From an uncultured Verrucomicrobiota bacterium (GTDB lineage Bacteria; Verrucomicrobiota; Verrucomicrobiia; Limisphaerales; UBA9464), in assembly GCA_903916195.1 (NCBI GenBank), contig CAIWVP010000118.1, positions 1 through 64,000 on the forward strand: a stretch of 64,000 nucleotides of DNA, in the 5' to 3' direction. Below are positions 27,519-32,434 of this stretch, piece after piece. Position 1 is the first letter of the stretch, and every line of letters starts with the position of its first letter. A program made the position numbers and the translations under genes. The notes beneath the pieces were generated by a model. That model had not been told where the DNA came from and made no database searches. It worked only from the letters and a program-made list of their open reading frames with translations.

Positions 27519-27655
27519 CGGAACTCGGTCGGCAATGTTGCGGCCGATCGCGGAAGATGTCGAACCGGGAAACCATGGGAAAGTTGCGGGGCAGGGAGCG
27601 CGGACCAGGGAGCGGATGCCCCGACCGCATTTCGGCATTGCGTCGCGCGTCGCCT

Positions 27656-29008
27656 GTGAGTTCATCCGCGGCCGTGAAAGCGAAGCTCAAAACCATCGAA
27701 GGTTCCGTCGTCGCGCCGCTGGGTTTCCGGGCGTCCGGCGTCTTCTGCGACATCAAGCGCCTCGGTACCGGCAAGGGGTCCGACAAAGGCCAGAAGCGCG
27801 ACCTCACGCTCATCGTGTCCGACGTCCCGTGCTCGGTCGCGGGCATGTTCACCACGAACCAGATCTGCGCCGCACCGGTGAAGGTCTGCGTCTCCCGCGT
27901 CGCCAAGGGCATCGCCCAGGCCGTCGTCGTGAACTCCGGCAACGCCAACGCCTGCACCGGCAAGCAGGGCATGAAGGACGCCCTCGCGATGGTCCGCCTC
28001 ACCGAGAAGGCGCTCGGCCTGAAGGACGGCTACGCGCTGGTCGGGTCCACCGGCCGCATCGGCGTGGCCATGCCCTTCGACAACGTGAAGGCGGGCATCG
28101 CGGCCGCCGCGCCGCTGCTCGGTCGATCGGAGGCGCACGCCGCGCATTCCGTCGAGGCCATCATGACCAGCGACACCCGGCCGAAGCAGGTCGCGGTCGA
28201 GCTCAAGCTCGGCGGCAAGACGGTCCGCATCGGCGGCATGTGCAAGGGCGCGGGCATGATCCAGCCGGGCATGAGCGCGACCGGCGCGCGGCCCGCCGCG
28301 CTGCCGGCGGGACTGCACGCGACGATGCTGGGCTTCGTCACCACCGACGCGGCGATATCGGCGAAGGCGCTGCAGGCCGCGCTACGCGAGACGGTGGCGC
28401 ACAGCTTCAACCGCATCACCGTCGACGGCGACATGAGCACCAACGACACCGTGCTCGTCCTCGCGAACGGCCTCGCCGGCAACGCGAAGATCACCTCGGC
28501 CAAGCACGAGGATTTCGCGGCCTTCGCCGCGGCGCTCCAGCACGTCTGCCTCGAGCTCGCCAAGATGATCGTCCGCGACGGCGAGGGCGTCCACCGCGTG
28601 GTGACCGTCCGTGTGACCGGTGCGAGATCGGTCGCCGACGCCGACGCCGCGGCCCGGGCCGTGGCGAACAGCGCGCTGGTGAAGACGAGCTGGCACGGCG
28701 GCGACCCCAACTGGGGCCGCATCATCGACGCCATCGGCTACAGCGCGGCGACGGTCGTGGAGAGCAAGGTGGACATCGGCTACAGCGCTCCCGGCTCCCG
28801 CAAGATCCTCTGGAGCCTCCAACGGGGCCAACCGACGAAGGCGACCTTCAAGCAGCTCTGCGCCGCGGCCGCGCCGAAGGAGTTCGACCTCCACATCCGG
28901 CTCAACCTCGGCAAAGGCGAGGCGCTCATGTACGCCGCCGACCTCACCGAGCACTACGTCGAGTTCAACAAGGGCGACGTGACCGACCCGACGACGCTGG
29001 GAGGTTGA
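27656..29008 (+). CDS. argJ: Bifunctional glutamate N-acetyltransferase/amino-acid acetyltransferase
   Basis: A 450-residue ArgJ, which transfers acetyl between N-acetylornithine and glutamate and can also use acetyl-CoA in many bacteria. The self-cleavage site is visible as HATMLGFVTTDA, the Thr becoming the N-terminal nucleophile of the beta chain. Other markers are VNSGNANACTG, KGAGMIQPGM, NRITVDGDMSTNDT and HGGDPNWGRIIDAIGYS. The start is uncertain: GTG at 27656 or GTG at 27674 give a normal N-terminus, whereas the first in-frame ATG at 27557 would add low-quality sequence lying in the divergent promoter region. It heads the arginine run argJ-mutH-like-argB-rnhA-argD. Confidence 0.95.
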   Translation: MSSSAAVKAKLKTIEGSVVAPLGFRASGVFCDIKRLGTGKGSDKGQKRDLTLIVSDVPCSVAGMFTTNQICAAPVKVCVSRVAKGIAQAVVVNSGNANACTGKQGMKDALAMVRLTEKALGLKDGYALVGSTGRIGVAMPFDNVKAGIAAAAPLLGRSEAHAAHSVEAIMTSDTRPKQVAVELKLGGKTVRIGGMCKGAGMIQPGMSATGARPAALPAGLHATMLGFVTTDAAISAKALQAALRETVAHSFNRITVDGDMSTNDTVLVLANGLAGNAKITSAKHEDFAAFAAALQHVCLELAKMIVRDGEGVHRVVTVRVTGARSVADADAAARAVANSALVKTSWHGGDPNWGRIIDAIGYSAATVVESKVDIGYSAPGSRKILWSLQRGQPTKATFKQLCAAAAPKEFDLHIRLNLGKGEALMYAADLTEHYVEFNKGDVTDPTTLGG

Positions 29009-29044: not shown

Positions 29045-29653
29045 ATGACCCGCGACGAAGCCATCGCGAAGCTGGCCGGATTGGTCGGCCAAGACCTCCG
29101 TCCGCTGGCGGACACCTATCGGGTCACCGTCTGGAAGAACGGGAAAAAGAACAAAGGCTGGGCAGGCGACGTCGTCGAACGGTTCCTCGGGCTGCCGGCG
29201 AACCCGGTCCAAGGGCCGGACTTCGGCGATTGGGAACTGAAAGTCGTCCCGCTGCGGAAGGTCGGTGGACGGTGGCAACCGAAGGAGACGATGGCCGTCA
29301 CGATGATCGCCGCGGACAACGTCGCGGCGACGCCGTTCGAGCACAGCCATCTGCTCGACAAGTTGCGCAGCCTCGTGATCTGCGGCCGCGAGTCCGTGAG
29401 CGAGAAGGATGACCATGCCAGGTTCGTGAAGGCCGCGGCATTCGACCTCGGTGACGGCGCGCTCTACCGCCAGGTGCAGGACGACTACGAGAGCCTCCGC
29501 GCCCTGATCCGCCATGGCGGCTTGGCGTCGGTGACCGGTCGGATCGGTCTGCTCGTGCAGGCGCGCACGAAAGGTCCCGGCCACGGGAGCACGACCAGGG
29601 CGTTCTACGCGAGGACCTCGCTGGTGGCTCGACTGTTGAGGCTCGAAAGCTGA
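29045..29653 (+). CDS. MutH/Sau3AI-type restriction endonuclease-fold nuclease
   Basis: A 202-residue protein collinear with MutH. After a short helical N-terminus it reads NKGWAGDVVERFLGL (compare MutH KGWVG...LLE.WLG), then GPDFGDWELKVVPL, matching the MutH catalytic D-x6-E-x-K. The corresponding residues here are Glu45, Asp59, Glu64 and Lys66; the spacing Glu45-Asp59 equals MutH, while Asp59-Glu64 is two residues shorter. Downstream, ETMAVTMIAAD, FEHSHLLDKLRSLVI and QDDYESLRALI follow the MutH order. MutH nicks hemimethylated GATC with MutSL in gamma-proteobacteria; relatives are restriction enzymes. It lies 36 bp after argJ and 12 bp before argB, and no methyltransferase is adjacent, so its biological role is unclear. 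Confidence 0.8.
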   Translation: MTRDEAIAKLAGLVGQDLRPLADTYRVTVWKNGKKNKGWAGDVVERFLGLPANPVQGPDFGDWELKVVPLRKVGGRWQPKETMAVTMIAADNVAATPFEHSHLLDKLRSLVICGRESVSEKDDHARFVKAAAFDLGDGALYRQVQDDYESLRALIRHGGLASVTGRIGLLVQARTKGPGHGSTTRAFYARTSLVARLLRLES

Positions 29654-29665
29654 ACACTTTCCTCC

Positions 29666-30541
29666 GTGCAAGACCTCATCGCCAAGGCCGCCACGTTGTT
29701 GGAGGCGTTGCCCTACATCCAGAAGTTCGCCGGCACCACGTTCGTCGTGAAGTACGGCGGTTCGTTCATGGATTCGCCCGACCCCTCGGTCCGCGACGGC
29801 GTCGCCCGCGACGTCGTCTTCCTCGAAGCCGTCGAGGTGAACCCGGTGGTCGTCCACGGCGGCGGCAAAGCCATCACCCGGGCGATGGAGGCGGCCGGAT
29901 TGAAGGCGAGCTTCATCCAGGGCCAGCGCGTGACCGACGAGGCGACGGTCGCCGTCGTCGAGCAGGTGCTGTCGCGCGAGATCAACCCCGAGGTCGTGGC
30001 GACGATCAACGGGCTCGGCGGCGTGGCACAGGGTTTCGCCGGCTCGGACATCTTCACCTGCCGCAAGCTGTGGCTCACCGGTCCGGATGGCGCGAAGCTC
30101 GACATCGGGTTCGTCGGAGAGGTCACCGCGGTCGACACCGCACCGCTGCTGGATTGCATCGCGCGCGGGTTCACGCCGGTGATCAGCCCCACGGCGCGGG
30201 GCGAGGACGGCAAGATCTACAACTGCAACGCCGACGTCGCGGCCGCGATGGCCGCCATCGCGCTGAAGGCGAAGCGGCTGGTCTTCATGAGCGACGTGCC
30301 CGGCCTGATGCGCGACCCCAAGGACCCGTCGACCGTGATCGCCCACCTCCAGACCAGCGAGGTGCCCGCGCTGAGGGCCGCGGGCATCGTGGACAAAGGC
30401 ATGATCCCGAAGGTGGACAGCGCGGTCGCCGCGTTGAGGGCGGGCGTGGACAAGGTCTCGTTCGTCGACGGCCGGACACCGCACTCGGTCCTGCTCGAGA
30501 TCTTCACCGATGCCGGCGTGGGAACGGAAGTCGTGCTGTGA
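29666..30541 (+). CDS. argB: Acetylglutamate kinase
   Basis: A 291-residue amino-acid kinase that phosphorylates N-acetylglutamate, the second committed arginine step. The start is GTG at 29666, giving MQDLIAKAATLLEALPYI and then VVKYGGSFMD, the phosphate-binding loop (GGS/GGN region). Other markers are VVVHGGGKAIT, the substrate loop FIQGQRVTDEATV, NGLGGVAQGF, YNCNADVAAAMAA and MIPKVDSAVAAL. The C-terminus includes a DGRTPHSVLLEIFTDAGVGTEV tail (written here in parts: DGRTPHSVLL, TDAGVGTEV). It overlaps the rnhA GTG start as GTGA. Confidence 0.96.
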   Translation: MQDLIAKAATLLEALPYIQKFAGTTFVVKYGGSFMDSPDPSVRDGVARDVVFLEAVEVNPVVVHGGGKAITRAMEAAGLKASFIQGQRVTDEATVAVVEQVLSREINPEVVATINGLGGVAQGFAGSDIFTCRKLWLTGPDGAKLDIGFVGEVTAVDTAPLLDCIARGFTPVISPTARGEDGKIYNCNADVAAAMAAIALKAKRLVFMSDVPGLMRDPKDPSTVIAHLQTSEVPALRAAGIVDKGMIPKVDSAVAALRAGVDKVSFVDGRTPHSVLLEIFTDAGVGTEVVL

Positions 30542-31047
30542 TCACGTCATCGGAAAAGGTCGTCATCCACACCGACGGCGGCTGCCAGGGGAATCCCGGG
30601 GTCGGCGCGTGGGCGTGGGTCATCGAGCACGGCGAGCAGATGTGGGAGCTGTCCGGCGGCGTGCCGGCGACGACCAACAACCGCATGGAGCTCCAAGCAG
30701 CCATCCAGGCGCTCAAGGCGCTGAACCAACCTTGCAGCATCGAGTTCCACACCGATTCCAACTACCTCCGGCAAGGCATCACCACCTGGGTGGCCGGATG
30801 GAAGCGCAACGGCTGGCGGACGGCCGACAAGAAGCCGGTCAAGAACCAGGACCAATGGCAGGAGCTGGATGTGTTGGCGGCAAAGCACCGCATCACCTGG
30901 AAGTGGCTGAAAGGCCATGCGGGCCACGCGTTGAACGAGCGGTGCGACCGTCTCGCCGGCGACGCGATGGCGGACATCCGGAAAAAGTTCTCGCCCGCCC
31001 AGCTCCGCGCGGCGCTCGCCGACTTCACGGCGGCCGACGGCAAATGA
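30538..31047 (+). CDS. rnhA: Ribonuclease HI
   Basis: A 169-residue RNase HI that cuts RNA in RNA-DNA hybrids. The GTG start at 30538 overlaps the argB stop as GTGA, so the two are likely translationally coupled. The four metal-binding acids are present: Asp13 (HTDGGCQGNPG), Glu51 (NNRMELQAA), Asp73 (HTDSNYLRQG) and Asp137 (NERCDRLAGDAM), plus the flexible catalytic-loop His (KGHAGH) and the basic handle region (WVAGWKRNGW). A C-terminal tail of about 20 residues (FSPAQLRAALADFTAADGK) goes beyond the E. coli length of 155. There is nothing to link it to arginine synthesis apart from position. Confidence 0.95.
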   Translation: MITSSEKVVIHTDGGCQGNPGVGAWAWVIEHGEQMWELSGGVPATTNNRMELQAAIQALKALNQPCSIEFHTDSNYLRQGITTWVAGWKRNGWRTADKKPVKNQDQWQELDVLAAKHRITWKWLKGHAGHALNERCDRLAGDAMADIRKKFSPAQLRAALADFTAADGK

Positions 31048-31129
31048 GGAAAGGGCGTCCTCCAGCACGCCCCGCCGCAAAAACGCTTTGCATGCCGCGC
31101 CGCTTTTTGCGGCGATGCGTCCGCATCTG

Positions 31130-32434
31130 ATGAGAGAACTGGTCCCTGCCCCGCCGCCCATCGTCCACAACCAGTTCGCGGAGGTCCGCGAGCTGTTCAA
31201 CCGTTTCGTCGTGCCCAGCTACGGGCGCTTCGAGCTCGCGCTCAGCCACGGCGCGGGCAGCTATGTCTGGGATGTCGCCGGGAAGCGGTACCTCGACCTC
31301 GGCGGCGGTATCGCCGTCTGCGCGCTCGGGCACTCCGATCCCGAGATCACCGAGGCGCTCGTCGAACAGTCGCGCAAGCTCGTCCACGTCTCGAACCTCT
31401 ACTTCCAGGAACCGCAGGGACGCCTCGCCCAACGGCTCGTCGGCCATCTCGCGCCCGGCAAGGTCTTTTTCTGCAACTCCGGCGCCGAGGCCAACGAAGG
31501 ATTGTACAAGCTCGCCCGGAAGTTCGGCCACGACGAGGGGCGCTTCGAGGTGATCACCGCGGTGGATTCGTTCCACGGCCGGACGCTCGCCGGCATCGCC
31601 GCCACCGGCCAAGAGAAGGTGAAGAAGGGCTTCGAGCCGATCATCCCGGGCTTCCGCCACGTGCCCTTCAACGATCTCGAGGCGATGCGCGAAGCGGTGT
31701 CGCCGTCGACCGCGGCGATCCTCGTGGAAGGCATCCAGGGCGAAGGCGGTGTCACGCCCGCGACCGCCGGATACCTGCTCGGCCTCCGCAAGCTCTGCGA
31801 CGAGAAGCGGATCCTGCTGCTGGTCGACGCCGTGCAGTGCGGGCATTTCCGCACCGGCCGTTTCCAGAGCTTCCAGCGCGTCCTCGAAGGCATCCCGGGC
31901 GCGGAGCAGTTTCTTCCGGACGGGATCTCGATGGCGAAATCGCTCGGCGGCGGGTTCCCGATCGCGGCGTTCTGGGTGCGCGAGGAAGCCCACGGCGTGA
32001 AGCTGTGCGACGCTCTCGGCGCGGGCACGCACGGGACCACGTTCGGCGGCACGCCGCTCGGCTGCGCGGTCGCGCTGAAGGTCCTCGACGTGATCGAGCG
32101 GGACCGGTTGGCCGACCACGTCCGGACCACCGGCGACCTCCTGAAGGCGCGCATCACGAAGCTCTCGGAGGATCATCCCGGCGTCGTGAAGAGCGCGCGG
32201 GGTCTCGGCTTCATGCTCGGGATCGAGCTCCAGGACCGCTCCCGGATCCGTGCTTTCTCGGCCAGCGACAAACCGGCCAGCATCCAGTTCGTCAACCGGC
32301 TCCATGAGGCCGGCGTCCTCACCATCCCGAGCGGCAACCAGATCGCTCGGCTGCTGCCGGCCCTCAACCTGCCCCGCTCCCAGGCCGAAGAGGGCATGGA
32401 CGTCATCGAGGGACTCGTGAAGTCGCTCGCATGA
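31130..32434 (+). CDS. argD: Acetylornithine aminotransferase-like class III aminotransferase
   Basis: A 434-residue PLP class III aminotransferase. It has GSYVWDVAGKRYLDLGGGIA, FFCNSGAEANEG, SFHGRTLAGIAATGQ, the PLP lysine in SMAKSLGGGFP and HGTTFGGTPLGCAVAL. Position after argJ and argB supports the ArgD role (N-acetylglutamate semialdehyde to N-acetylornithine), though ornithine, GABA or succinylornithine substrates cannot be excluded by sequence alone. The usual DEVQTGxGRTG element reads DAVQCGHFRTG, so the Asp that holds the PLP ring is kept but the Glu is Ala and the loop differs. Start choice between 31088, 31115 and 31130 is uncertain; 31130 (MRELVPAPP) gives the closest family length. 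Confidence 0.88.
   Translation: MRELVPAPPPIVHNQFAEVRELFNRFVVPSYGRFELALSHGAGSYVWDVAGKRYLDLGGGIAVCALGHSDPEITEALVEQSRKLVHVSNLYFQEPQGRLAQRLVGHLAPGKVFFCNSGAEANEGLYKLARKFGHDEGRFEVITAVDSFHGRTLAGIAATGQEKVKKGFEPIIPGFRHVPFNDLEAMREAVSPSTAAILVEGIQGEGGVTPATAGYLLGLRKLCDEKRILLLVDAVQCGHFRTGRFQSFQRVLEGIPGAEQFLPDGISMAKSLGGGFPIAAFWVREEAHGVKLCDALGAGTHGTTFGGTPLGCAVALKVLDVIERDRLADHVRTTGDLLKARITKLSEDHPGVVKSARGLGFMLGIELQDRSRIRAFSASDKPASIQFVNRLHEAGVLTIPSGNQIARLLPALNLPRSQAEEGMDVIEGLVKSLA

Follow-up and report, generated by a model that had tools for sequence, protein, structure and literature searches.

What is a MutH-like DNA nuclease doing in an arginine operon? The question is raised by a stretch of 64,000 nucleotides from an uncultured Verrucomicrobiota bacterium (UBA9464; GCA_903916195.1, contig CAIWVP010000118.1, positions 1-64,000; hereafter the window), in which an intact open reading frame with an ATG start, encoding a single-domain protein of 202 amino acids, lies 36 bp behind the stop codon of argJ and 12 bp ahead of the GTG start of argB (Table 1). 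Both distances agree with the original prediction, as does the absence of a methyltransferase gene adjacent to the nuclease gene, which probably shares a transcript with the arginine genes and, as a passenger, probably has no role in arginine synthesis. As argued below, we consider it somewhat probable that the gene encodes an orphaned GATC-type Type II restriction endonuclease of the MutH/Sau3AI fold, carried as cargo in the arginine operon.

Table 1. Coordinates of the nuclease gene, its neighbours and selected codons in the window
Feature	Position	Strand	Basis
argJ, upstream neighbour	27557..29008	+	PF01960, 2e-128
MutH/Sau3AI-family nuclease, 202 aa	29045..29653	+	Pfam, NCBIfam and PDB matches; AF2 and Foldseek; 27-member alignment
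Glu45 codon (E. coli MutH E56)	29177..29179	+	alignment; invariant in 27 homologues
Asp59 codon (MutH D70); Asn in most of the methyltransferase-linked branch	29219..29221	+	alignment
Glu64-Leu65-Lys66 codons (MutH E77-L-K79)	29234..29242	+	alignment
Arg174-Thr-Lys176 codons (MutH R184-P-K186)	29564..29572	+	alignment
Tyr188 codon (MutH Tyr212)	29606..29608	+	alignment
argB, downstream neighbour	29666..30541	+	PF00696, 5.5e-39
RNase H, 4 bp overlap with argB end	30538..31047	+	PF00075, 2e-46
argD-like class III aminotransferase	31088..32434	+	PF00202, 3.4e-95

Family, fold and active site

The window protein matches the Pfam MutH family (PF02976) with an E-value of 8.9e-10 and 38.8 bits at a cut-off of 23, and the MutH model of NCBIfam with 4.4e-19, but with 68.5 bits against an equivalog cut-off of 243; a second NCBIfam equivalog score is also under its cut-off (56 versus 229.9), and the Sau3AI family model of NCBIfam gives 4.5e-13, far under its equivalog cut-off. 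MutH structures are the best sequence matches in the PDB (2aoq, 5.4e-14). An AF2 model built from the 27-member alignment (pLDDT 89.6, pTM 0.86) retrieved MutH 2aoq first in a Foldseek search (E 1.8e-13, TM 0.83) and Sau3AI next, and no other nuclease fold was significant in this search. By fold, by the D...E-X-K motif and by the glutamate upstream of it, the protein is a member of the MutH/Sau3AI nuclease superfamily, which bears out the MutH fold that had been predicted; in profile as well as structure searches MutH is the best fit. PADLOC reports a REase_II match (8.8e-8). The MvaI/BcnI family was considered and rejected, as its Pfam match (3e-4) is under the cut-off and covers the active-site part only, with no whole-length or fold match, and MutH fits far better.

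How far does the resemblance to MutH extend into the active site? Collinearity had been claimed for Glu45, Asp59, Glu64 and Lys66, and all four align with the catalytic residues of the E. coli enzyme, Glu45, Glu64 and Lys66 being invariant across the 27 homologues; the placement of Asp59 rests on the sequence alignment, since the model loop that holds it (residues 51-60) has a low mean pLDDT of 56. The alignment also reproduces the claimed shortening of the Asp-Glu spacing by two residues relative to E. coli MutH (D-X4-E-X-K), which is common to the whole branch of relatives described below. This spacing was rejected as a sign of Sau3AI ancestry because Sau3AI in the PDB has a longer, MutH-like spacing. 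Arg174, Lys176 and Tyr188 align with Arg184, Lys186 and Tyr212 of MutH, the last being its methylation-sensing residue (PMC3848065). In several methyltransferase-linked relatives (L017:8943-10597, L124:7763-8380, L306:8001-8600, L307:2482-3126 and L125:9207-9821) the position of Asp59 is taken by Asn, within the motif PNFGSWELK or PNAGSWELK; the motif reads PNGLGWELK in the verrucomicrobial genome G132.

The protein thus shares with MutH of E. coli and Haemophilus the whole fold, the catalytic residues, the single domain and the residues aligned with Arg184, Lys186 and Tyr212, but it is only about 27% identical, and its Asp-Glu spacing and C-terminal loop are shorter. Sau3AI, which cuts at GATC, belongs to the same superfamily and its family profile matches with 1.8e-15, best to the Sau3AI N-terminal domain; however, it is about twice as long, with an additional MutH-like domain and a longer Asp-Glu spacing, whereas the window protein consists of one domain and comes from a branch that pairs with adenine methyltransferases.

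Relatives and their methyltransferases

A scan of 84,980 genomes yielded 22 relatives of 36-63% identity, the matches spanning most or all of each relative, from Verrucomicrobiota, Acidobacteriota, Myxococcota, Poribacteria, Gastranaerophilales and Bathyarchaeota; a verrucomicrobial sample added two further homologues, and viral contigs another two. The window nuclease belongs to a coherent branch of single-domain proteins of about 200 amino acids that occurs in several bacterial phyla, one archaeon and phages. In the tree it groups with the homologues of L003, L004 and G132 (support 93/84), most methyltransferase-linked and phage members fall together (86/75), and the Myxococcota members are separate, accompanied by one row from Acidobacteria (97/87). 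As the nuclease is 63% identical to that of L004 although the ArgJ proteins are only 51% identical, and as it is still 53% identical to the archaeal protein of Bathyarchaeota, the sequence comparisons point to horizontal spread of the branch. The gene was not found in 56 of the 57 relatives searched, the single other match being weak and partial. A 595-kb uncultured phage also encodes a MutH-like protein of 37% identity (LR756511.1:475775-476362).

What accompanies the nuclease elsewhere? In Gastranaerophilales it adjoins a Dam-family D12 methyltransferase (TIGR00571) and a DpnA-like one; in Poribacteria a DpnA-like methyltransferase is followed by three tandem nuclease copies, which have diverged from one another (L017:8943-11354); and a DpnA-like methyltransferase adjoins the nuclease in the verrucomicrobial genomes G132 and G206 and in two phage contigs, in one of which (L306) the genes are 3 bp apart. 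Among Verrucomicrobiota the homologues closest to the window nuclease are those of L003 and L004, where orthologous DpnA-like methyltransferases are encoded elsewhere in the genome, unlinked to the nuclease (57-69% identity within the methyltransferase group). Of the 22 genomes reached through L003-L024, 21 contain PF02086 (D12), as do G132, G206, G682 and G539, so that only the window genome and G446 lack it among the 27 nuclease carriers; among 12 relatives from the same genus or family as the window genome, D12 was matched in two, in one of these only weakly.

With DpnM-like and/or DpnA-like methyltransferases beside the nuclease, these arrangements resemble the GATC systems of the DpnII/MboI type (DpnM, DpnA and R). 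R, however, is of the DpnII family (PF04556) there and MutH-fold here, and in the window genome the methyltransferase partner was not found. Orthologues of the branch's DpnA-like methyltransferase also adjoin DpnII genes (PF04556, 1.1e-36), which makes GATC the probable site, and by this analogy the branch nuclease most probably is a restriction endonuclease of the GATC type. In the Gastranaerophilales loci no other palindromic tetramer is as depleted as GATC (observed/expected 0.31); in the Myxococcota loci the GATC ratio is 1.07. At two other loci (L177:2701-3468 and L179:391-1158) a DpnI-family gene, recognised as PF06044 in the former and by similar sequence in the latter, lies directly beside a DpnA-like methyltransferase, a pair that appears self-contradictory if both target GATC.

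The gap between argJ and argB

In four near relatives (G007, G010, G011, G013) the gap between argJ and argB is empty and measures 36-70 bp. It holds a PIN gene in G005 and coaE-like and Phd/PIN-like genes in G002, all named from sequence only, and in L003 a glucuronyl-esterase-like gene, the nuclease gene, a PIN gene and a fragment of the argJ 3'-end. This fragment follows the PIN gene (L003:11328-11465), and a similar one follows a MazF-like gene in L121:2474-2939. In G003, the ArgJ of which is 98% identical to that of the window, the argB contig (L299:1-1024) carries upstream of argB a gene for a 340-residue, AT-rich membrane protein with no Pfam or PADLOC match. This genome was not used as a plain witness of presence or absence, since the contig with argJ ends 33 bp behind that gene; the argB contig does, however, show other cargo. 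The gap is an insertion hotspot with turnover of cargo in near relatives. With a GC3 of 0.85, compared to 0.89-0.94 in the neighbouring genes, the nuclease gene has a near-host composition, and since the site is also shared with L003 it may be an old resident.

Methyltransferases, MutL and GATC in the window genome

Is there a partner elsewhere in the genome? No D12 (PF02086) or DpnA-like methyltransferase was found in the assembly, which is 96% complete and lacks about 4%. Matches to PF01555 are confined to one gene in a phage context and to type III-like pieces, and the one solitary C5 methyltransferase, on contig C62, was considered as a possible Sau3AI-type partner; it has a counterpart in G003, in which no full-length MutH-like gene is assembled. 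The D12 methyltransferase of G003 was not taken as a partner, because its neighbours look phage-like. MutL of the window genome is of the endonuclease type, with its motif intact (DQHAAHERILFE and CPHGRP both kept). The observed/expected ratio of GATC is 0.85, compared to 0.86-0.93 in four relatives for which the search turned up no full-length MutH-like gene; with no special avoidance, GATC counts were set aside as proof of restriction in this host.

The absence of a detected Dam/DpnA-like methyltransferase, the intact MutL motif and the GATC ratio argue against a MutH repair role in this genome, and the same points do not demonstrate active restriction either. Of the features of MutH in the strict sense, a score above the NCBIfam equivalog cut-off and a MutL without the endonuclease motif are lacking, and a Dam-type methyltransferase was not found in the 96%-complete genome, although one may lie in the missing 4%. 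A methyltransferase beside the nuclease, the mark of a restriction-modification system, is also lacking in the window but is found in Gastranaerophilales, Poribacteria, G132, G206 and phages.

Weighing the explanations

The original prediction had left three options, a solitary restriction enzyme, a methyl-directed nick enzyme of an unrecognised repair pathway and an operon passenger. The methyltransferase-paired homologues and the turnover of cargo between argJ and argB lend support to the first and the last, and the state of methyltransferases and MutL in the window genome counts against the second. As an orphaned restriction endonuclease, the protein would derive from one half of a mobile restriction-modification cassette, the other half of which would be a DpnA-like (beta-class) N6-adenine methyltransferase, sometimes joined by a Dam/DpnM-like D12 methyltransferase. 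In the verrucomicrobial lineage the nuclease would have been separated from its methyltransferase and would now sit as cargo in the argJ-argB hotspot. It would be expected to recognise GATC and to cleave rather than nick, and it may be active in its host; if it is active, a protecting methyltransferase must exist, either in the unassembled part of the genome or of an unrecognised type. The E. coli enzyme cuts efficiently only with the help of MutL, so that the isolated window protein would not be certain to cleave. Against this reading stand the failure to find a D12 or DpnA-like partner, the lack of special GATC avoidance, the synteny with L003 (argJ ... nuclease ... argB), which could mean old vertical retention, and the composition close to that of the host.

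Could the protein instead serve mismatch repair, nicking the unmethylated strand at hemimethylated sites upon activation by MutS and MutL as E. coli MutH does? MutH is its best match in family and fold, the counterparts of Arg184, Lys186 and Tyr212 are present, and the Myxococcota sister clade, with its unlinked Dam and motif-less MutL, suggests that the branch may be able to serve repair. Yet with the MutL of the window genome as it is, with no Dam/DpnA-like methyltransferase found there and with a distribution among its relatives that would be odd for a core repair gene, we hold this to be very unlikely. The missing methyltransferase would be accounted for if the substrate were a different one, as for a solitary enzyme that depends on methylation (Type IV-like) or acts at a site other than GATC and so needs no host methyltransferase, and the D-X4-E-X-K spacing and the short C-terminal loop, both unlike MutH, could be read in this way; but the nearest relatives keep N6A methyltransferases in their genomes and the counterpart of the MutH recognition residues is retained, and a different substrate appears quite unlikely. 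It might also be imagined that the gene is a non-functional or decaying relic of a restriction-modification insertion, tolerated since its product no longer cuts, which would fit the undetected partner, the patchy distribution and the cargo turnover at the site. An intact reading frame, the retention of the invariant family positions including the catalytic residues, and a composition that suggests a stay of some time in the genome without breaking make this reading unlikely.

A candidate repair system in Myxococcota

MutH has been described as confined to some gammaproteobacteria (PMC4390886, PMC8744996), and no report of MutH-type repair for Myxococcota was found in the open-access literature. 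Nine Myxococcota genomes with a nuclease of the window-type clade could be assessed (G452, G454, G455, G456, G460, G462, G464, G465 and G682; MutL loci L081-L088 and L284). In all of them MutL lacks the endonuclease motif and a D12 methyltransferase is present, this Dam-family enzyme being unlinked to the MutH-like gene. Ten D12 proteins were tested, one from G674 and the others from nine genomes that belong to this set or to other carriers, and all score above the TIGR00571 dam cut-off. Across the Myxococcota sample the MutL motif is lost in 12 of the 14 genomes where a MutH-family gene and D12 occur together, but in 3 of the 19 that lack one or both (Fisher p 9e-5, not corrected for phylogeny). 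MutL of the verrucomicrobial G132 and G206 is also without the motif, a comparison that covers MutH carriers only. Two Myxococcota genomes, G607 (L254) and G490 (L247), encode a MutH 50-51% identical to that of E. coli; D12/Dam was not found in them and their MutL has the endonuclease motif.

This combination is the one that marks methyl-directed mismatch repair, and the Myxococcota clade is a plausible candidate for such repair beyond the gammaproteobacteria. The premise that it is not to be expected outside that group looks shaky for this clade. It is a serious possibility, if short of probable, that the short MutH-like branch was recruited in Myxococcota, and perhaps in some Verrucomicrobiota, into a restriction-derived Dam/MutH/MutL repair that is independent of the gammaproteobacterial one, the window gene being an orphaned member of the branch. 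The window gene itself would be the more ordinary case, an orphan restriction-type nuclease. If the recruitment is true, the branch would offer a natural gradation between restriction and repair enzymes, leading from phage and bacterial cassettes to Dam-bearing Myxococcota with a motif-less MutL, and the origin of methyl-directed repair would become testable outside E. coli.
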